Below, piece after piece: positions 19,699-29,739 of a stretch of 38,336 nucleotides of DNA; positions within the stretch are counted from its first letter, which is position 1; every line of letters begins with the position of its first letter. The stretch lies in contig SVPW01000021.1 of assembly GCA_015065645.1 (NCBI GenBank), forward strand, positions 1 to 38,336, in the 5' to 3' direction. This DNA is from Oscillospiraceae bacterium. Lineage in GTDB: Bacteria > Bacillota > Clostridia > Oscillospirales > Acutalibacteraceae. The notes beneath the pieces were generated by a model. The model made no database searches. It was not told where the DNA came from and worked only from the letters and a program-made list of their open reading frames with translations. The position numbers and the translations under genes were made by a program.

Positions 19699-19956
19699 AT
19701 GGAAGATAGGGTAGCAGTGATTGGAATAATAGTTGAAAACCCCGATGCCGCAGGGCACTTGAATGCAATTCTTCACGAATATGGTGAGTATATAATCGGC
19801 AGAATGGGTATTCCTTATAAAAAACGGAATATAAATGTTATAAGTATAGCGGTTGATGCTCCTCAGCCAATAATAAGTGCTCTTTCCGGAAAGATTGGAA
19901 AACTTAGCGGTGTAAGTGCTAAAACTGCTTATTCGGGTGTGATTGCCAATGAATGA
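19699..19956 (+). CDS. TM1266-family iron-only hydrogenase system regulator
   Basis: 85 residues beginning MEDRVAVIGIIVENPDAAGHLNAILHEYG and containing IIGRMGIPYKKRNINVISIAVDAP, matching the small ferredoxin-fold (NikR C-terminal-like) TM1266 family that is repeatedly found with HydEFG. It is presumed to be a ligand-binding regulator, since it lacks a DNA-binding domain. The ATG at 19699 has AGGAGG just upstream. A longer in-frame start at 19606 adds a hydrophobic, cysteine-rich extension without family support. Its end overlaps the start of hydE by eight bases, implying coupled translation. Confidence 0.85.
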   Translation: MEDRVAVIGIIVENPDAAGHLNAILHEYGEYIIGRMGIPYKKRNINVISIAVDAPQPIISALSGKIGKLSGVSAKTAYSGVIANE

Positions 19957-20998
19957 AAGGGTAAAAAAATTAATTGATGCTCTTTATAACGGCAAAAATT
20001 TAACGCTTTCAGAGTATGAATATTTGGTATCTGAGTGCAATGAAGAAAATGCCGCTTATGCCGCAGCTCTTGCAGTAGAAAAAAGAAAAGCTGTATATGG
20101 TAATAAGATTTTCATTCGTGGGCTTATTGAAATAAGCAGCTTTTGTAAAAATGATTGTTATTACTGCGGTATACGCAAAAGCAATAAAAATTGTGAACGC
20201 TACCGCTTAACACGGGAAGAAATTTTAGATTGCTGTGATGCAGGTTATGAATTAGGTTTTAGAACCTTTGTAATGCAGGGCGGTGAGGATGCGTTTTTTA
20301 CTGATGATTTTCTGTGTGAAATTATAAGTGAAATAAAACGCCGTTATCCCGATTGTGCTGTAACGCTTTCTTTAGGAGAGCGCTCAAGGGATAGCTATGA
20401 AAGGCTTTATAATGCGGGTGCAAACCGTTATCTTTTGCGCCACGAAACGGCAGATGAAACCCATTACGGAAAGCTTCATCCTCCAAAGCTTACACTTAAA
20501 AACCGTATGAAATGCCTTTATGATTTAAAGGAGATAGGCTTTCAGGTGGGTTGCGGATTTATGGTTGGCTCTCCGTATCAAACCTATAAAACCATTGCAA
20601 GTGATTTAAAATTTATTGAACAGTTTAAGCCTGATATGTGCGGTATAGGACCGTTTATTCCTCATAAGGATACGGATTTTCGTAATGAGAAGGCGGGTTC
20701 TTTGTTACTTACTTGTTATCTGTTATCATTGGTAAGGCTTATTTATCCCAATGTTTTACTTCCCTCAACCACAGCACTTGGAACTATTGACCCTATGGGT
20801 CGTGAAAAGGGTGTGCTTTCGGGAGCAAATGTGGTAATGCCGAATTTATCACCTATGAATGTGAGGAAAAAATACGCCCTTTATGATAATAAAATATCAA
20901 CCGGTGAAGAAGCGGCAGAATGTAAAGCGGCACTTGAAAAGAAAATGAACGCAATAGGTTATAAGATTGTAACCGAGCGTGGAGATATAAAACTTTAA
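19949..20998 (+). CDS. hydE: [FeFe]-hydrogenase H-cluster radical SAM maturase HydE
   Basis: 349 residues. The radical SAM cluster motif is C66xxxC70xxC73 (SFCKNDCYYCG). Typical HydE blocks follow: FVMQGGED, NRYLLRHETAD, LKEIGFQVGCGFMVGSP and STTALGTIDPMGREKGVLSGANVVMPN. HydE works with HydG and HydF to build the 2Fe subcluster and its dithiomethylamine bridge. The optional second iron-sulfur cluster seen in Thermotoga HydE is absent: no cysteines occur in the corresponding C-terminal stretch. The ATG at 19949 overlaps the preceding gene; a TTG two codons earlier is formally possible. Confidence 0.95.
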   Translation: MNERVKKLIDALYNGKNLTLSEYEYLVSECNEENAAYAAALAVEKRKAVYGNKIFIRGLIEISSFCKNDCYYCGIRKSNKNCERYRLTREEILDCCDAGYELGFRTFVMQGGEDAFFTDDFLCEIISEIKRRYPDCAVTLSLGERSRDSYERLYNAGANRYLLRHETADETHYGKLHPPKLTLKNRMKCLYDLKEIGFQVGCGFMVGSPYQTYKTIASDLKFIEQFKPDMCGIGPFIPHKDTDFRNEKAGSLLLTCYLLSLVRLIYPNVLLPSTTALGTIDPMGREKGVLSGANVVMPNLSPMNVRKKYALYDNKISTGEEAAECKAALEKKMNAIGYKIVTERGDIKL

Positions 20999-21019
20999 AA
21001 TAAAAAAGAGGTAATTATT

Positions 21020-22468
21020 ATGGCAATTTATGATCCTAAATCGCTTAAAGCGGAAGAATTTATTAATGACGGCGAAATAAGAGCAACCTTGGAATATGCT
21101 GAGGCTAACAAGAATAATGTTGAGCTTATTGATGCCATTCTTGAAAAGGCAAGACCTAAAAAGACCGAAACAGGCTGTGTATGCTCAGGCCTTACTCACC
21201 GTGAAGCATCTGTATTGCTTGCTTGCGATATTCCCGAAAAGGTTGAAGAAATTTATAAAATAGCAGAGGAAATAAAGCTTGCTTTTTACGGAAACCGTAT
21301 AGTTATTTTTGCGCCGCTTTATCTTTCAAACTACTGCGTAAATGGCTGCGTTTACTGCCCTTATCATGCAAAAAATAAGCGTATTCCACGCAAAAAGCTA
21401 ACGCAAGAAGAGGTTAAGGCAGAGGTTATTGCTTTGCAGGATATGGGTCATAAGCGTTTGGCTATTGAAGCAGGCGAGGACCCCGTGAATAATCCTATTG
21501 AGTATATTCTTGATTGCATTAAAACCATTTACAGCGTAAACCATAAAAACGGTGCCATAAGGCGAGTAAATGTTAATATTGCGGCAACCACTGTTGAAAA
21601 TTATCGCAAGCTTAAAGAAGCCGGTATCGGTACATATATCCTTTTCCAGGAAACCTATCATAAGGAAAGCTATTTGAAGCTTCATCCCACAGGTCCCAAG
21701 CACGATTATGATTATCATACCGAAGCTATGGATAGAGCAATGCAGGGCGGTATTGATGATGTAGGTCTTGGAGTGTTGTTTGGTCTTGAGCTTTATAAGT
21801 ATGAATTTGCGGGACTTATTATGCACGCAGAGCATCTTGAGGCAGTTCACGGAGTTGGCCCTCATACTATAAGTGTTCCAAGAATTAAGCGTGCAGATGA
21901 TATTGACCCCACAGCATTTGATAACTCAATTTCAGATGAAATTTTTGCAAAAATCACCGCTTGTATCCGTCTTGCAGTTCCTTATACGGGAATGATTATC
22001 TCCACCCGTGAAACCGAAGAGGTGCGTTCAAAACTGCTTCGTCTTGGCATTTCTCAGGTAAGCGGCGGTTCTCGAACATCGGTTGGCGGCTATACTCAGC
22101 AGGAGCGTCCTCACGATACAGAGCAGTTTGATGTTTCCGATCAGCGCACATTGGATGAGGTTGTTCACTGGCTTATGAAAAACGGTCATATTCCGTCTTT
22201 CTGCACAGCTTGCTATCGTGAAGGCAGAACGGGTGACCGCTTTATGAGTCTTTGCAAAAGCGGTCAGATTCTTAACTGCTGCCACCCAAATGCACTTATG
22301 ACATTAAGCGAATATCTTGTTGACTATGCTTCAGCGGAAACTAAGGAAACAGGCTTTAAGATGATAAAGGATGAGCTTTTGAGAATACCAAAGGATAAGG
22401 TTCGTGCTATAGCTGAGCAAAATATTGATGATATTAAAAATTCAAACCGCCGTGATTTCAGATTTTAA
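21020..22468 (+). CDS. hydG: [FeFe]-hydrogenase H-cluster radical SAM maturase HydG (tyrosine lyase)
   Basis: 482 residues. The radical SAM site is C106xxxC110xxC113 (NYCVNGCVYCPYH). The auxiliary five-iron cluster ligands follow the CX2CX22C spacing at C395, C398 and C421. HydG cleaves tyrosine to p-cresol and a glycine-derived fragment, supplying the CO and cyanide ligands of the H-cluster. All cluster cysteines are present, so it should be active. It starts 21 bases after hydE, and hydF follows 16 bases after it, consistent with one operon. Confidence 0.97.
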   Translation: MAIYDPKSLKAEEFINDGEIRATLEYAEANKNNVELIDAILEKARPKKTETGCVCSGLTHREASVLLACDIPEKVEEIYKIAEEIKLAFYGNRIVIFAPLYLSNYCVNGCVYCPYHAKNKRIPRKKLTQEEVKAEVIALQDMGHKRLAIEAGEDPVNNPIEYILDCIKTIYSVNHKNGAIRRVNVNIAATTVENYRKLKEAGIGTYILFQETYHKESYLKLHPTGPKHDYDYHTEAMDRAMQGGIDDVGLGVLFGLELYKYEFAGLIMHAEHLEAVHGVGPHTISVPRIKRADDIDPTAFDNSISDEIFAKITACIRLAVPYTGMIISTRETEEVRSKLLRLGISQVSGGSRTSVGGYTQQERPHDTEQFDVSDQRTLDEVVHWLMKNGHIPSFCTACYREGRTGDRFMSLCKSGQILNCCHPNALMTLSEYLVDYASAETKETGFKMIKDELLRIPKDKVRAIAEQNIDDIKNSNRRDFRF

Positions 22469-22484
22469 TTAAAAGGGTGATATT

Positions 22485-23690
22485 ATGGGACTTAATTCCA
22501 CTGTATCTGCAAACAGATTGCATATTGGCTTTTTCGGTATGCGTAATGCAGGAAAATCAAGCCTTGTAAATGCTGTTACAGGGCAGGAGCTTTCGGTTGT
22601 TTCATCTGTTTTGGGTACTACTACCGATCCCGTTTTAAAAACAATGGAGCTTTTGCCTTTAGGCCCTGTTGTGATAATTGATACCCCGGGTTTTGATGAT
22701 GAGGGGGATCTTGGTGAAATGCGTGTTAAAAAGACCCGTGAGATATTAAGGCGTGTGGATATTGCCGTTTTGGCTGTTGATGCAACTGTGGGTCTTAGCA
22801 AAGCCGATAGTGAGCTTATTGATATTTTCACTCAGCGCAAAATCCCGTTTATCACTGTTTTTAATAAGTCTGATCTGCTTGAAAGCATACCACAGCCCGC
22901 TGCAAATGAAATATATGTAAGTGCTGTTAATAATGAAGGTATTTTTGAGCTTAAAGAAATGCTTTCCAAAATAAGACCTAAAGGTGAAATATGCGGAAAA
23001 TTGGTGGGTGACCTAATTAAAAAGGATGATACCGTGCTTTTAATTACCCCCATTGATTCAGCTGCCCCCAAGGGAAGGCTTATTCTGCCTCAGCAGCAGG
23101 TTATCCGTGATATTTTGGATGCCGATGCCGCCTCCTTTGTTGTAAAGGAAAACGGTATAGAAAATGCACTTTGCTCATTAGGTGTAAAGCCTGCACTTGT
23201 TATTTGTGATTCTCAGGTGTTTGCACTTGCAAATAAAGCTGTGCCAAAGGAAATTCCGCTTACATCCTTTTCTATACTTATGGCACGCAGTAAAGGCTTT
23301 TTAAATACCGCAATAAATGGGGTAAAGGCAATAGAAAAACTTAAAGACGGCGATACCGTGCTTATTAGTGAGGGGTGTACACACCACCGTCAATGCGGAG
23401 ATATAGGAAGTGTTAAAATTCCGGCTCTTTTGCGTAAATTTACAGGCAAACAGATAAATATTGAGCTTTCAAGCGGAAATCATTTTCCTGAGGACCTTTC
23501 AAAATATGCTCTTGTTATCCATTGTGGCGGTTGTATGCTTAATAACCGTGAAATGCAGTACCGTATGGAAACCGCAATAGATAACGGTGTTCCTTTTACC
23601 AATTACGGAACGGCACTTGCCTTTATGAACGGCATTTTGGAGCGTAGTATAACCCCTATTCCCGAAGCTTTTGCAGAATTTAAAAAATAG
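22485..23690 (+). CDS. hydF: [FeFe]-hydrogenase H-cluster maturation GTPase HydF
   Basis: 401 residues. The N-terminal GTPase domain has the P-loop GMRNAGKS (18-25), DTPGF (66-70) and NKSD (about 127-130). A central dimerisation domain follows. The C-terminal iron-sulfur domain has the characteristic C298-T-H300 pair and HCGGC (346-350). HydF is the scaffold on which the 2Fe subcluster is assembled before transfer to the hydrogenase. The ATG at 22485 follows an AAAGGGTGAT ribosome binding site. No hydrogenase structural gene (hydA) lies in this window, so the apoenzyme must be encoded elsewhere. Confidence 0.96.
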   Translation: MGLNSTVSANRLHIGFFGMRNAGKSSLVNAVTGQELSVVSSVLGTTTDPVLKTMELLPLGPVVIIDTPGFDDEGDLGEMRVKKTREILRRVDIAVLAVDATVGLSKADSELIDIFTQRKIPFITVFNKSDLLESIPQPAANEIYVSAVNNEGIFELKEMLSKIRPKGEICGKLVGDLIKKDDTVLLITPIDSAAPKGRLILPQQQVIRDILDADAASFVVKENGIENALCSLGVKPALVICDSQVFALANKAVPKEIPLTSFSILMARSKGFLNTAINGVKAIEKLKDGDTVLISEGCTHHRQCGDIGSVKIPALLRKFTGKQINIELSSGNHFPEDLSKYALVIHCGGCMLNNREMQYRMETAIDNGVPFTNYGTALAFMNGILERSITPIPEAFAEFKK

Positions 23691-23738: not shown

Positions 23739-23880
23739 CTGTATACAGCATCAAATTGATGTGGGGCAAAGGGAAACCTTTGTTTTACCCGTAAGGGAAG
23801 TGCGGTGAGAATCCGCCACAACAGCCATTACCGTATGGCGGCAAAAAGCCGTTTTGAGTCGGAATGCTTACTGTATACAG
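23739..23880 (+). promoter_or_regulatory. Cobalamin riboswitch aptamer
   Basis: The conserved core reads AAAGGGAA, then GGGAAGTGCGGTGAGAATCC and GCCACAACAGCC, then GAGTCGGAATGC, in the order expected for the cobalamin aptamer, although the B12 box is divergent from GAGxCxGGAxACCUGCC. The closing stem P1 consists of two identical copies of the self-complementary CTGTATACAG (23739-23748 and 23871-23880). The downstream genes are an ECF transporter and transcobalamin-like proteins, which agrees with a B12 signal. Confidence 0.85.
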
Positions 23881-23993
23881 CGGTTAGAAAAACACTTTCG
23901 GGCAAGGGAGGGTGTAACCGACAGACGGTTTTTCAAGCCGTCGGTTTTGTCGTGTTAAATTCCGAGCACCCGTGAAAAAACGGGTGCTTTTTT
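23881..23993 (+). terminator. Riboswitch expression platform with intrinsic terminator
   Basis: The terminator is GCACCCGT (23966-23973) with ACGGGTGC (23980-23987), loop GAAAAA, then six T. GGGTGT (23910-23915) can instead pair with the left arm GCACCC, a likely antiterminator. Between them a second hairpin, GACGG (23924-23928) with CCGTC (23938-23942), precedes TTTT. Transcriptional OFF control by cobalamin is inferred. Confidence 0.75.
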
Positions 23994-24022: not shown

Positions 24023-24850
24023 ATGAAAATCAAAAAAATCTTATCAGTTGTAGCCGCTTTAGCGGTGGTATTATGTGTGTGTCTTTCGGTATCTGCAGAA
24101 GAAAACACAACCGTTTTTGTCTCAATAGCTGACGGTGATATAAAGCTTTGCAATAAAAGTGTAACCGTTACAGATATTGATAATGACGGCAAATTAACCA
24201 TTAACGATGCGCTTTACATAGCTCATGAGCAGTATTATGAGGGCGGTGCCGCCGCAGGATATGAAAGTGCCGATTCGGCTTTTGGTTTAAGCCTTGCAAA
24301 GCTTTGGGGAAATGATAACGGCAGCTATGGTTATACCCTTGATAATGCCTCTGTTTTAACTTCTCTTGCACAAACGGTAGTATCAGGCAATCGCATTTAT
24401 GCCTATTGCTATACCGATTTAACCGCATGGTCTGATGCATATTCTTATTTTGATAAAAATGAGGTAAGCGCAAAGCAGGGAGAAAGTATTGAGCTTACCC
24501 TTTTAAAGCATGCTTATGACAGTAATTGGAATACAATATCCGTTCCTGCAGAAAATGCTGAAATTTATATAAACGGTAATCCAAGCGGAGTTAAAACCGA
24601 TAGTAACGGTAAAGCTGTTGTAACACTTAATTCTTCGGGTGAAGTGGTTATAACCGCAAAATCTCGGGATTATATTCTTGTGCCACCGGTATGTGTTGCA
24701 AATGTTGAAGCAGAACAGAAAGAAGAAATAAAGCAAGACGAACAAACAGAATCTCCTAAAACAGGCGATAATATCGGCAAAGAAGTTTGGCTTTGTGTAA
24801 TTTTTATGGCGGCTGTTTGCGTTTGTGTAAAGCGTGTTTATGAAAAATAA
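24023..24850 (+). CDS. Secreted, SPKTG wall-anchored protein of the cobalamin operon
   Basis: 275 residues. A signal peptide (1-25, ending VSA) is followed by a dockerin/EF-like calcium loop DIDNDGKLTIND (51-62). An aromatic, glycine-rich region then has the pattern GYTLDNASV....V.SGNRIYAYCYT, echoing the beta-hairpin motif of the DUF4430/transcobalamin C-terminal domain in the next gene. A beta-rich segment (about 150-230) and a charged linker precede SPKTG (244-248), a hydrophobic stretch and a Lys/Arg tail. SPKTG is a variant of the sortase motif used by clostridial class B sortases, so covalent wall attachment is expected. As first gene after the cobalamin riboswitch it probably binds B12 or helps deliver it; that role is inferred. 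The family has no name I can state with certainty. Confidence 0.7.
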   Translation: MKIKKILSVVAALAVVLCVCLSVSAEENTTVFVSIADGDIKLCNKSVTVTDIDNDGKLTINDALYIAHEQYYEGGAAAGYESADSAFGLSLAKLWGNDNGSYGYTLDNASVLTSLAQTVVSGNRIYAYCYTDLTAWSDAYSYFDKNEVSAKQGESIELTLLKHAYDSNWNTISVPAENAEIYINGNPSGVKTDSNGKAVVTLNSSGEVVITAKSRDYILVPPVCVANVEAEQKEEIKQDEQTESPKTGDNIGKEVWLCVIFMAAVCVCVKRVYEK

Positions 24851-26561
24851 GCTTTTAGTTATTTTATTAAGTTTGCTGTTAATACTTTCAGGTGGTTTAA
24901 TTGTGCAGGCTGATACTGCCGATGTGGCTGAACAAATAATTACCCTGCGTGTAAAAAATGACAATGCCGATTCACTGCAGCATTGGCTTGATACAAAGGC
25001 GGTATCTTCTGCGGGAAACGGTATTGAATGGTATGTGATGGCACTTTCTCACAGCAATCAGTATGATTTTTCAAAGTATGCCGCCGCCCTTTCTGAAAAA
25101 ATGCTTAACGGCAAAATCAAGGGTGCGGTAGCTCAGCAACGCTGTGCCTTAACGCTTATTTCCTGTGGATACACAAATTCCGAAGTATTGCGTATAGCAT
25201 TGGAAAATTCAGGAAAACAGGGAGTAATGAGCTATATTTACGGTCTGCATTTATTGAATAATTTTCAAAATCCACCTGTTTCAAAGGAAAAAATAATTGA
25301 TAATATTTTATCCTCTATGATAGGTGATAACACCACAGGCTTTGGTTGGGCAATTTCTGGTACAGTTCCTGATGTTGATGTTACTGCAATGGCTGTGCAG
25401 GCATTAGCTCCGTTTTATATAACAAACGGCTCTGTAAAGCAAAGTGTTGATATTGCATTGCAGTTTTTATCGGCTTCCCAGCTTGAAAACGGGGATTTTA
25501 AAAGTATGGGAATTGCAAATCCCGAAAGCGGTTCTCAGGTGCTTATGGCACTTTCAGGATTGGGAATAGATTGCCGTAATGATAGCCGTTTTATAAAAAA
25601 CGGAAACACTGTTATTGATGGTATTATGCGTTATAGCCTTTCAAACGGTGAATTTTGCCATATTTACGGAAAAGAGGCTAACCAAAATTCTTCAATGCAG
25701 GCGTTTTGTGCCTTTGTGGCAGAAGGCTTGCGTGACAAAAATATAAACTTTTATAGCTTTGCAAAGAATAATCTTTATGACCTCACACCTAATGATACAA
25801 CATTGCCATCGGGAAATAATTCTTCTTCACAGCAAATACCGCCTTCAACCTCTCAAAACGATGTGCCTTCATCAGAAAATAGTTTGGTAAATTCCAATAT
25901 AAACGAAAGCACTGAAACAAAGGATGAACAGCAAGAGTTTTTGGAAAGCAGTGAGCCGGATAATACCAATAATTCAAACAAAAATGATAATCCAAATAGA
26001 AAATCAAAAACACCTTGGCAGTTGTGGTTTGCAATAGCGGTTTTATCTATTGTGGCAGTGTGTATTGCGATACTTTATATAACCAAAAGGGCAACGGCTA
26101 AAAATATTATATCGGTAATAATCATAGCCTTTGTTTTGATTTTAATTTCTCTTTTTATAAAAATTGAGTCATCTGAGCAGTATTATTCCAATACGCAGGT
26201 TGGTAAAATCAAGGGAACCGTAACCTTAGAAATAGTTTGCGATGAAATAGCAGAGTTTACAAAATATCCTGATGGCTGTATTATGAATGCTTGTGAAATT
26301 GAATTTTCCGCAGGGGAGAGTGTTTTTGATGTTACCTCCCGTGCTGTGCGTAAAAATGGGCTTTTAATCGAAAAAAACGGTGGCTCAAACAGTGTTTATA
26401 TTTCGGGGATAGAGGGTATTTATGAATTTGATTACGGTGAGCTTTCGGGTTGGGTTTATCTTGTGAACGGTGAGTCGCCAAATGTTGGCTGTGCAAGTTA
26501 TGAGGCTAAGGATGGCGACAAAATAGTATGGGCATATACTACAGGAAAGGAAATATCATAA
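24840..26561 (+). CDS. Membrane-anchored transcobalamin/intrinsic-factor-like protein (alpha/alpha barrel + DUF4430)
   Basis: 573 residues. Signal peptide 1-24. Residues about 30-315 have the repeating helical pattern of the prenyltransferase-like alpha6/alpha6 barrel, including GFGWAISGTVPDVDVTAMAVQAL (160s-180s) and GSQVLMALSGLG. A Ser/Asn/Glu-rich linker (about 318-390) leads to two membrane helices (393-415, 421-441). Residues about 456-566 form a DUF4430 (transcobalamin C-terminal-like) domain with GWVYLVNGESPNVG (537-550) and DGDKIVWAYTT. Barrel plus this beta domain is the architecture of animal intrinsic factor and transcobalamin. Both lobes should face outside, joined through a membrane hairpin. 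The start ATG at 24840 overlaps the previous gene by 11 bases. Control by a cobalamin riboswitch supports B12 binding; direct proof is absent. Confidence 0.8.
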   Translation: MKNKLLVILLSLLLILSGGLIVQADTADVAEQIITLRVKNDNADSLQHWLDTKAVSSAGNGIEWYVMALSHSNQYDFSKYAAALSEKMLNGKIKGAVAQQRCALTLISCGYTNSEVLRIALENSGKQGVMSYIYGLHLLNNFQNPPVSKEKIIDNILSSMIGDNTTGFGWAISGTVPDVDVTAMAVQALAPFYITNGSVKQSVDIALQFLSASQLENGDFKSMGIANPESGSQVLMALSGLGIDCRNDSRFIKNGNTVIDGIMRYSLSNGEFCHIYGKEANQNSSMQAFCAFVAEGLRDKNINFYSFAKNNLYDLTPNDTTLPSGNNSSSQQIPPSTSQNDVPSSENSLVNSNINESTETKDEQQEFLESSEPDNTNNSNKNDNPNRKSKTPWQLWFAIAVLSIVAVCIAILYITKRATAKNIISVIIIAFVLILISLFIKIESSEQYYSNTQVGKIKGTVTLEIVCDEIAEFTKYPDGCIMNACEIEFSAGESVFDVTSRAVRKNGLLIEKNGGSNSVYISGIEGIYEFDYGELSGWVYLVNGESPNVGCASYEAKDGDKIVWAYTTGKEIS

Positions 26562-27437
26562 ATGAACTTATATAGATTTCATCCCTTTGCAGAAGCGGTG
26601 TATTTTCTTTCAGTAATAGTTTTTTCCTGTATGATTCAAGATGTTGTATGGGCATTTGTTTCATTTGTGGCAGCCTTTGCTTTTTGTGTGGTGCTTTCGG
26701 GCGCTAAGGCTTTTTCAAATTTTAAATATTTATTACCTGTTGCGGTATTGATAACCGTTACAAATCCGTTATTTTCACATAAGGGTAAAACGGTATTGTT
26801 CTTTTTAATGGGTAATCCGGTCACTGCAGAGGCCTTTGTTTACGGTGCGGTTTTTGCAATTACTCTATGCGGTGTTTTTCTGTGGTGTAAGGCATTAAGC
26901 CGTGTTTTTACTGCGGATAAATATTTATTGCTTTTATCAAAGCATCTGCCAAAAACCGCTTTGGTGCTGTCGGCAACACTGCGTTTTATTCCGCTATTAA
27001 GCCGCCGTGCAAAGCAGGTGATTTCTGTGCGCCGTGCAATGGGGATTACATCCTCACTAAGCTATATTGACCGTGTTAAAGGTGCGCTTAACAGCTTTTC
27101 GGCACTTATTGGTTGGTCTTTGGAACACGCAGTGGAAAGCAGCAGGTCAATGCTTTCACGAGGATATGGTATAAAAAAATGCGGCCATTTTTCAGATAGG
27201 CATTTTAAAATGTGTGACCTTTTGGCAATAATGGTTGTTTTGTTGCTTGATGCAGTTCTATTTTGCGGTATGGCTTTAGATGCATTTACTTTTTCTTTTT
27301 ATCCTTTAGTTGAATTCGGTGTGGTTAAACCTTTACTTATTCTATCATATTGCGCCTTTGCGCTGCTTTGCTTTATCCCTGTAATTATCAGTTTATCGGA
27401 GGTGTTAAAATGGCATTTTTACAAATCGAAAATTTAA
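26562..27437 (+). CDS. ECF transporter transmembrane subunit T (CbiQ/EcfT family)
   Basis: 291 residues with five to six predicted membrane helices. The cytoplasmic coupling region carries VISVRRAMG and SRSMLSRGYG, versions of the two Ala-Arg-Gly-type motifs of EcfT through which the T subunit contacts the ATPases. It starts directly after the stop of the preceding gene and overlaps the ATPase gene by 28 bases, so translation is tightly coupled. Within this operon it is presumably dedicated to cobalamin rather than being the shared module of a group II system, because its own ATPase and S subunit follow. Confidence 0.88.
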   Translation: MNLYRFHPFAEAVYFLSVIVFSCMIQDVVWAFVSFVAAFAFCVVLSGAKAFSNFKYLLPVAVLITVTNPLFSHKGKTVLFFLMGNPVTAEAFVYGAVFAITLCGVFLWCKALSRVFTADKYLLLLSKHLPKTALVLSATLRFIPLLSRRAKQVISVRRAMGITSSLSYIDRVKGALNSFSALIGWSLEHAVESSRSMLSRGYGIKKCGHFSDRHFKMCDLLAIMVVLLLDAVLFCGMALDAFTFSFYPLVEFGVVKPLLILSYCAFALLCFIPVIISLSEVLKWHFYKSKI

Positions 27438-29071
27438 GCTTTTCATATCCTGAATGTAGTGAAAATGCTATTTCCGATATTTGCTTTTCGGTAAATGAGG
27501 GTGAGATTATTTTAATTATCGGTGGTTCGGGAAGCGGAAAAACTACGCTTTTGCGTTCGCTTAAACCAATGATTGCACCGCATGGAAAAAAGAAGGGGAA
27601 AATTCTTTTTAAAGGTGAGGATATTGATTTATTATCTGCAGAAAATTCTGCATTTGATATAGGTTATGTGGGGCAGCATCCTGATGAACAAATAATTACC
27701 GATAAGGTTTGGCATGAGCTTGCGTTTAGTGTGGAAAATCAGGGCTTTGAAAGTGCGGTTATCAGGCGTCGTGTTGCCGAAATGGCAAGCTATTTCGGTA
27801 TAGAGGATTGGTTTTATAGGGATACCGATACCCTTTCGGGTGGTCAAAAGCAGCTGCTTAATTTGGCATCGGTTATGGTTAGCTCTCCAAAGCTTTTGCT
27901 TCTTGATGAGCCAACATCCCGTTTAGATCCCATTTGCGCTTCTGATTTTACCGCAACCGTTCAAAAGCTTAACCGTGAGCTTGGGCTTACCGTAATCTTG
28001 GCGGAACACCGTTTTGAAGAGCTTTTTCACATTGCTGATAAAATTGTTTATCTTGAAAACGGAAGGGTGTCTTTTTGCGGCACTCCTCAAAAGGCTTGTG
28101 AGTATATCAGCCATACGGCATTTTCTGCCTGCTTGCCGTGTGCGGCACGAATTTTCAGCGCATTAAAACCAAACAGTGCTTTGCCGCTTACTGTGCGTGA
28201 AGGCAGAAATATGATTGAAGCTGAGTATCAAGTATTAAAAGGGATGGCAGTAGAAGAAAAGAACAATGATTTTTCGGAAAATGTAATTGAGGCTCAGAAT
28301 GTTTGTTTTCGTTATGAAAGAAAGGATAAGGATATTCTTTCTGATTTTAATTTGTGCGTAAAAAAAGGCGAGGTTATATCATTGCTTGGCGGAAACGGAG
28401 CAGGTAAAACCACCGCTTTAAAGGTATTGGCGGCATTGGAAAAGCCGTATAAGGGAAAAATTAAAATTAACGGTAAAAAAATAAGCTCATACCATGATAA
28501 TTCTCTTTATAGGGGAGTATTGGGTCTTTTGCCGCAAAATCCTCTTACCGCTTTTTCAAAGGATACTGTATTTGATGACCTTGCAGAGGTTTTGCTCTTT
28601 AACGGTATGACAAAAGAAAATATTGAAAAACATATAAAAATTCAAACAGAAAAATTTGCCGTAACGCATTTACTTGCAAGGAACCCTTATGATTTAAGCG
28701 GTGGTGAGCAGCAACGCTGTGCCATTATAAAGCTTTTGCTTAATAATCCGCAAATAATTTTAATGGATGAACCCACAAAGGGTATGGATGCCGTTTTAAA
28801 ACAGCAGTTTTGTGAAATTATTGCAGAACTTAAAAAAGAGGGGAGAACGGTTGTAATCGTAACACATGACCTTGAGTTTGCGGCAAGGGTTAGTGACCGT
28901 TGCGGATTGCTGTTTTCGGGAGAAATCGTTTCCATCCAAAGCTCAAACAGCTTTTTTTCGGGTAATAAATTTTACACAACATCCGCCCACAGAATTTCAT
29001 CAGGTATTTTTTCAAATGCTGTTTTGTGTGAGGAAGTGGTGGAATTGTGCCTGAAAGGAGAAGGTTTATGA
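27410..29071 (+). CDS. ECF transporter fused double ATPase (EcfA-EcfA')
   Basis: 553 residues holding two complete ABC ATPase domains. The first has Walker A GGSGSGKTT (38-46), signature LSGGQ (142-146), Walker B LLLLDEP and switch His200. The second has Walker A GGNGAGKTT (327-335), signature LSGGEQ (429-434) and Walker B ILMDEP (about 450-455). Both sites look catalytically intact. A fused pair replaces the usual separate EcfA1 and EcfA2. The start ATG at 27410 follows GGAGGTG and lies within the end of the T-subunit gene. It powers uptake of the substrate, most likely cobalamin. Confidence 0.9.
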   Translation: MAFLQIENLSFSYPECSENAISDICFSVNEGEIILIIGGSGSGKTTLLRSLKPMIAPHGKKKGKILFKGEDIDLLSAENSAFDIGYVGQHPDEQIITDKVWHELAFSVENQGFESAVIRRRVAEMASYFGIEDWFYRDTDTLSGGQKQLLNLASVMVSSPKLLLLDEPTSRLDPICASDFTATVQKLNRELGLTVILAEHRFEELFHIADKIVYLENGRVSFCGTPQKACEYISHTAFSACLPCAARIFSALKPNSALPLTVREGRNMIEAEYQVLKGMAVEEKNNDFSENVIEAQNVCFRYERKDKDILSDFNLCVKKGEVISLLGGNGAGKTTALKVLAALEKPYKGKIKINGKKISSYHDNSLYRGVLGLLPQNPLTAFSKDTVFDDLAEVLLFNGMTKENIEKHIKIQTEKFAVTHLLARNPYDLSGGEQQRCAIIKLLLNNPQIILMDEPTKGMDAVLKQQFCEIIAELKKEGRTVVIVTHDLEFAARVSDRCGLLFSGEIVSIQSSNSFFSGNKFYTTSAHRISSGIFSNAVLCEEVVELCLKGEGL

Positions 29072-29739
29072 AAAAACTTTCAATTATCATAACCGCCTTG
29101 ATAATACCTGTTTTTTTAACTCTTGGGTACATCTTTTTCAATTTGGGATATTACAATCTTTTGGGTGTTTTTACAACCGTTGCGGTATGTGTAATATTTT
29201 TTATGTATTTTGAGCGTAAACATACCGAGCCTTGTGTTCTTGTGCTTATTGCTGTTTTTACGGCACTTTCGGTTGCGGGAAGAATAATGTTTGCACCAAT
29301 TCCCGGCTTCAAACCCGTTACTGCTGTTGTGGTAATTGCCGCAGTTTATTTTGGCCCTGCGGCAGGTTTTATGATAGGCTCTCTTTCTGCGTTTGTTTCA
29401 AATCTTTATTTTGGGCAAGGACCATGGACCCCTCTTCAAATGTTTGCTTGGGGTATAATAGGTCTTATTGCGGGTGTGATTTCAAATCCACTGCTCAAAA
29501 GCCGTGTTCTAATGCTTGTTTATGCCGTTTTTTCGGGTGTGCTTTTTTCACTTATTATGGATATTTGGACAACCCTTTTTGCCGAAAAAACATTTAATTT
29601 TACACGCTATATTGCAGTGCTTGCAACATCATTGCCGTTTACTGTGGTGTATGCATTTTCAAATGTTGTATTTATGATTATTTTAATGCCTCTTGTTTCA
29701 AAAAAATTGCAACGCATAAAAATCAAATACGGAATATAA
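29068..29739 (+). CDS. ECF transporter substrate-binding (S) subunit, probable cobalamin
   Basis: 223 residues with about six membrane helices. The motif GPWTPLQMFAWG (118-129) is typical of the CbrT-like S subunits predicted or shown to carry cobalamin. The ATG at 29068 overlaps the ATPase stop (ATGA), with AGGAG just upstream. As last gene before the terminator at 29740-29772 it completes a self-contained importer: capture protein, T, fused A and S. Substrate assignment rests on the riboswitch and neighbours; a B12 precursor is a possible alternative. Confidence 0.8.
   Translation: MKKLSIIITALIIPVFLTLGYIFFNLGYYNLLGVFTTVAVCVIFFMYFERKHTEPCVLVLIAVFTALSVAGRIMFAPIPGFKPVTAVVVIAAVYFGPAAGFMIGSLSAFVSNLYFGQGPWTPLQMFAWGIIGLIAGVISNPLLKSRVLMLVYAVFSGVLFSLIMDIWTTLFAEKTFNFTRYIAVLATSLPFTVVYAFSNVVFMIILMPLVSKKLQRIKIKYGI

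Follow-up and report, generated by a model that had tools for sequence, protein, structure and literature searches.

A two-lobed protein with a predicted membrane tether

Could a bacterial importer of vitamin B12 be served by a capture protein that is built like animal intrinsic factor but stays on the membrane? This question is raised by a gene at positions 24840-26561 on the forward strand of contig SVPW01000021.1 (assembly GCA_015065645.1) of an Oscillospiraceae bacterium. The whole stretch analyzed, 38,336 nucleotides in length, is called the window. The open reading frame (ORF) starts with ATG and encodes a protein of 573 residues, P0001. The operon order is riboswitch, P0002, P0001, T, A, and S, where P0002 is a second exported protein and T, A, and S are the components of an energy-coupling factor (ECF) importer. 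As argued below, P0001 probably captures corrinoids for a CbrT-type ECF importer while tethered to the membrane, and a bacterial intrinsic-factor-like B12 clamp is a well-supported prediction.

The initial annotation had placed an alpha/alpha barrel and a DUF4430 domain on one polypeptide with a polar linker and two membrane helices between them, and the analysis confirms this layout. The DUF4430 family (PF14478) matches residues 492-567 (26313-26540) with 70.4 bits, far over the cut-off of 23.8. The AlphaFold2 model, made template-free from 78 aligned sequences, has a mean predicted local distance difference test (pLDDT) score of 85.5 and a predicted template modeling score of 0.69. It consists of barrel helices at residues 26-298, a disordered linker at 311-387 (pLDDT below 50), helices at 393-414 and 420-439, and a beta lobe from residue 457. 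Thus, P0001 can be divided into a signal peptide of about residues 1-25 (24840-24914; a hydrophobic N-terminus by direct reading, with a model helix at 2-18), the barrel lobe of residues 26-305 (24915-25754), the polar linker of residues 306-388 (25755-26003), the membrane hairpin (26016-26156), and the transcobalamin-beta-like lobe (26202-26540), which is supported by the Pfam match and by a stand-alone relative in locus L043.

Is this layout conserved? I fetched 80 loci by matching the profile of the fused family; all 80 carry the fused gene, although they were selected on that profile and the count is not a frequency. The alignment comprises the window protein and those of 77 of these loci. 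PF14478 was matched by 78 of the 78 proteins (E up to 0.1), while the linker varies from 22 to 144 residues (median 68.5). The two membrane helices are joined by a loop whose net charge is +3 in P0001 and +3 to +5 across all 78 proteins, a charge that fits an extracellular position of both lobes. Six residues (D178, D180, E229, S230, Q233, and H274) are invariant in the 78 proteins and are mere candidates for B12 contact. W538 is invariant as well.

Likeness to the animal B12 carriers

It was proposed in the initial annotation that the two lobes have the folds that clamp B12 in animals, and structure comparison bears this out for both the barrel and the DUF4430 lobe. In a Foldseek search of the predicted P0001 model against the PDB, the first 17 rows are transcobalamin, intrinsic factor, and haptocorrin. 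The beta-grasp lobe of the model resembles the C-terminal domain of transcobalamin (5NO0, E 1.7e-4, template modeling score by target 0.78; 5NP4, E 3.8e-4, 0.77), and the superposition of intrinsic factor spans both lobes (2PMV, 347 aligned residues between 23 and 569 of the model). In the predicted model, the barrel and the beta lobe face each other and are closed in cis, in an intrinsic-factor-like pose. In the VIA comparison, 2PMV is the sole B12 carrier among the 50 matches listed, at rank 48.

In contrast, the sequence routes failed. A phmmer search of P0001 reached the transcobalamin beta domain only at E 1.9, the profile of the 78-sequence alignment matched 25 chains with no B12 carrier among them, and a DUF4430 profile search for the animal carriers gave nothing at E up to 10. 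PF01122, the Pfam family of eukaryotic cobalamin-binding proteins, is not among the 17 Pfam families listed for P0001 at E up to 10. The link to the animal carriers is thus visible in the comparison of the predicted fold only, and the identity over both lobes is 11-16%. P0001 shares with intrinsic factor, transcobalamin, and haptocorrin an N-terminal alpha/alpha barrel followed by a C-terminal beta-grasp lobe. The animal carriers, however, are soluble and internalized by receptors, while the lobes of P0001 have a longer linker, are tied to the membrane by the predicted hairpin, and lie beside an importer. The lobe-closing step has a precedent in transcobalamin, whose separately made lobes come together on cobalamin and whose beta lobe binds cobalamin by itself (PMC5599065).

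Is the barrel an enzyme instead? By itself, it superposes best on terpene cyclases and next on sugar epimerases and hydrolases in the VIA comparison, and the Pfam toroid matches in relatives are to squalene cyclase and prenyltransferase families. An extracellular enzyme or a sugar-binding toroid with the DUF4430 lobe as a mere scaffold is nevertheless very improbable. Position 181 is aligned to the last D of a DVDD stretch in a drimenyl diphosphate synthase, a stretch that I take to be the DxDD motif of class II cyclases. At this position, 75 of the 78 proteins have V and none has D. In addition, the whole two-lobe model favors the B12 carriers, and the P0001 gene is accompanied by a riboswitch and ECF genes.

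Predicted cobalamin control of the operon

At the Rfam gathering score, no riboswitch was matched in the window; the AdoCbl-II family reached a sub-threshold 24.3 bits against a gathering score of 36.5. For this reason, a model of the leader, R1, was built from the riboswitches of 22 relatives, with the window excluded. R1 matched the window at 23775-23882 on the forward strand with 64.5 bits (E 6.2e-15). Thus, the cobalamin control that had been assumed for P0001 is supported, in the form of a diverged, AdoCbl-II-like aptamer. The RNAalifold structure of R1 has only 8 pairs, which is no proof of a conserved fold. Following the aptamer on the same strand, a hairpin at 23916-23956 (hand-counted; fold of 23883-23962, z -3.2) may serve as the expression platform, and an intrinsic terminator-like hairpin with a T run seen by direct reading (23964-23993; fold z -5.6) precedes the operon. 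No second R1 match was found in the window's genome among the 150 of 654 first-look candidates that were scored.

R1 has 62 matches in 56 of the 80 loci, every one on the operon strand, and 58 of the 62 lie within 900 nt upstream of a family gene. Of the 56 loci, 16 had given training sequences and L096 repeats L032, which leaves 39 that the model had not seen in training. In two of the outliers (L098 and L121), the start of the P0002-type (P2) gene was called too early by the ORF caller; another (L114) precedes a locus with no recognized P2 gene, and the last (L109) lies beyond the fused gene, close to the contig end. The Rfam cobalamin family RF00174 is above its cut-off in L032 (twice), L038, L041, and L045 among nine related loci, and in 12 of 20 relatives' whole genomes, where 12 of the 16 matches are at the operon-leader position and four elsewhere, as judged from coordinates alone.

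Seven loci have a second riboswitch 3′ of the fused gene and, where T is on the contig, before T. These are L053, L065, L075, L096, and L115 (R1 matches between 11563 and 11777), L109 (6364-6468), and L032 (7781-7921). Such loci may have separate cobalamin switches for the capture gene and the ECF genes.

The importer and its substrate

The T gene (26562-27437) begins at the base right after the P0001 stop codon and encodes a CbiQ-like component scoring just below the PF02361 cut-off (24.3 versus 25 bits). The A gene (27410-29071) encodes two ATPase domains in one chain (TIGR04520, 332.1 bits over two stretches, cut-off 315), and the S gene (29068-29739) has PF07155 and PF12822 over their cut-offs. 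All three are on the forward strand. In sequence, the S component is nearest to chain A of 6FNP, which is ECF-CbrT (E 1.2e-10), with 4HZU next at E 0.035; it is therefore called CbrT-like. The ECF importer predicted beside P0001 is thus supported, with a duplicated A, an S component that best matches CbrT, and a T component of borderline score. When phmmer searches with the window proteins were run on script-called ORFs, T and A were found next to each other and near the fused gene in 70 of the 80 loci, and S as well in 60. ECF-CbrT was shown to import cobalamin (PMC5997447) and shares with the window the S component family and the T and A modules. In Lactobacillus delbrueckii, however, eight S components are predicted to use a single ECF module (PMC5997447), while the operon in the window combines T, A, and S with the genes of two exported proteins.

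Does the bacterium need B12 from outside? Its genome assembly (1.86 Mb, 85.7% complete) has two matches to B12-binding domains, one in a frame that reads as MetH. The matches to FecCD are weak, and one of these exceeds its cut-off. CbiD had no match in this 85.7% complete genome. Given the MetH-like enzyme, the lack of a CbiD match, and the weak FecCD matches, the bacterium probably depends on outside B12, as far as gene content tells.

Instead of cobalamin itself, the ligand might be a related compound, whether cobinamide, a precursor of cobamides, or a different tetrapyrrole. Other ligands within the clade were allowed for by Burroughs et al. and by a reviewer (PMC1796856), cbrUVT is elsewhere listed as an uptake system for cobyrinate diamide (PMC8123684), and a precursor is also taken up by ECF-CbrT (PMC5997447). 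In contrast, the riboswitch is nearest to the AdoCbl-II type, the S component is CbrT-like, and, because the genome has a MetH-like enzyme and no CbiD match, a finished cobamide is the likelier need. A ligand other than cobalamin is therefore possible but doubtful.

With the architecture, the two-lobe fold match, the cobalamin-type leader, and the CbrT-like S component computed, I infer the topology, the B12 ligand, the closure, and the hand-over as follows. Both lobes would lie outside the membrane, and B12 or another cobamide would bind to one of them, most likely the small one, on which the second lobe would then close. With the hairpin keeping it at the membrane, the loaded clamp would pass B12 to the CbrT-like S component, from which the T and A subunits would drive it inward. 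At a high supply of B12, the operon would be turned off by the riboswitch and its terminator. Against the conservation described above, P0001 has no match in G066, a 99% complete genome from the same genus, and the search had 63 no-match genomes beyond those listed. Since G066 lacks a match, the system is patchy even inside the genus.

A second beta lobe upstream

P0002 (24023-24850, forward strand) ends 11 bases inside the P0001 ORF. It is an exported protein with a beta lobe at about residues 26-130, an Ig-like domain at about 135-232, and, at the C-terminus, an SPKTGD-type motif followed by a hydrophobic tail. The transcobalamin-beta-like lobe was missed by Pfam. In the VIA comparison, haptocorrin and transcobalamin beta domains rank first with a clear gap after them, while Foldseek is noisy, with phage capsid and Ig folds leading and haptocorrin at rank 23. 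The Gram-positive anchor family PF00746, which marks LPXTG-type sortase substrates, was matched by six of 53 aligned proteins at E up to 0.1, and P0002 is not one of the six.

In 73 of the 80 related loci, the fused gene is preceded by a recognized gene of P2 type or DUF4430 type. This gene lies within 80 nt of the fused gene in 71 of these 73, and an overlap of 11 bases between the called ORFs is the commonest spacing. Two P0002 matches are found in a single P2-type gene in L036 (4127-6355), L054 (8524-10011), and L084 (8279-9829). By eye, the P2-type protein of L036 has choline-binding-like repeats at its C-terminal end.

Does the barrel pair with its own beta lobe? It could pair with the beta lobe of P0002 or of a second P0001 molecule, leaving the lobes of one chain unpaired. 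P0002 supplies a second beta lobe in the operon, the linker lengths vary widely (22-144), and the split genes of relatives described below imply that pairing need not be in cis. In the model, the two lobes of the chain do close on each other in a pose like that of intrinsic factor, but a single chain was folded, so that pairing in trans was no option. I regard pairing in trans as rather unlikely. A relay of two beta lobes is comparably speculative. A wall-anchored P0002 lobe might catch B12 far out and pass it to the barrel, and the hairpin beta lobe might complete the clamp atop S, so that a transcobalamin-like carrier that stays on the cell would act as a swinging gate loading the ECF transporter.

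Origin of the hairpin

How did the hairpin arise? Another set of 20 loci, which overlaps with the 80 (L096, L100, and L118 repeat L032, L036, and L037), contains six fused, ten split, and four unclassified loci. In the last group (L035, L038, L039, and L044), the frame is broken by stops (L035), the gene is cut by the contig end, or a single lobe was recognized. In the split loci (L041-L043 and L045-L051), the barrel and the DUF4430 domain are encoded by adjacent separate genes ahead of T. In a hydropathy scan, eight of the ten split barrel proteins have a single C-terminal hydrophobic segment, which is weak in L046 and absent in L050, and all ten split DUF4430 proteins have an N-terminal one; those of L045, L046, and L050 look lipobox-like by eye. 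When P0001 is compared with the two proteins of the split locus L043, its barrel half shows 34% identity to the barrel protein, and its beta lobe shows 54% identity, over 94 residues, to the DUF4430 protein. Joining the two split proteins would give the order barrel, linker, helix, positive loop, helix, and beta lobe. Thus, the hairpin most likely arose by fusion of a C-terminally anchored barrel protein with an N-terminally anchored DUF4430 protein, with the reverse direction, fission of a fused gene into two, as the less likely alternative.

A tree of 53 T proteins was made from the window, the six fused and ten split loci, and every second T-bearing locus of the 80. Since the fused/split state needs three changes on this tree, it does not demonstrate a single fusion event. 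L032, L096, and L115 cluster with split relatives, and modules may have been swapped between loci. The split barrel protein of L050 (8491-10536) has two barrel matches and ends, by eye, in two dockerin-like repeats with no membrane anchor, a hint that it may dock onto a scaffold at the cell surface.

Relation to known systems

BtuG is a surface B12 binder of Bacteroidetes, and BtuG and BtuH have other folds and belong to outer-membrane systems. BtuH is likewise a Bacteroidetes surface B12 binder serving an importer, and one btuH homolog from Firmicutes, EUBSIR_01285, is located close to an ECF-like transporter for cobamides (PMC8941943). A precedent is the prediction of Burroughs et al. (2007) that surface proteins with a toroid and a transcobalamin C-terminal domain, encoded beside CbiO/CbiQ genes, scavenge B12; transfer of the module to animals was also proposed (PMC1796856). 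Their SLBB/toroid proteins share with P0001 the two domains, the CbiO/CbiQ-like neighbors, and the frequent presence of another SLBB protein in the operon. The idea of a bacterial B12 clamp has therefore been in print since 2007. The membrane hairpin, a CbrT-like S gene, a riboswitch, and fusion of anchored proteins were not found in the excerpted text of PMC1796856. New here are the hairpin as a probable gene fusion, the fused layout in 80 further loci, and the upstream beta lobe missed by Pfam. A table in PMC9963975 has an entry, listed at 14.3, annotated as 'Additional lipoprotein component of putative cobalamin ECF transporter'. This would also be an extra extracellular part of a cobalamin ECF importer and recalls the lipobox-like DUF4430 proteins of three split relatives, but it is small and too short for a barrel; the annotation may denote a DUF4430 protein. 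Among the best matches in the open-licence literature, I found no experimentally characterized member and, in agreement with the initial annotation, no characterized membrane-hairpin system of such a layout.

If the assignment is true, the capture device of the human B12 carriers is also that of a bacterial importer, in line with the 2007 prediction, and is here fixed to the membrane. It would then be testable how an ECF transporter receives B12 from a two-lobed clamp that binds it tightly, with a carrier that is not internalized. It would also bear on B12 competition among Clostridia; many of the fetched relatives are from animal gut samples according to their sequence records. With split and fused forms coexisting within one bacterial family, it would also be testable how the animal two-domain carrier could have been assembled from separate lobes. 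The S component is usually viewed as the substrate-binding protein of an ECF importer. Contrary to this view, the relay, if true, would give ECF importers a two-stage apparatus for substrate capture.

Directly upstream of the operon, the HydE, HydG, and HydF maturases of [FeFe] hydrogenase are encoded at 19943-23690 of the window.
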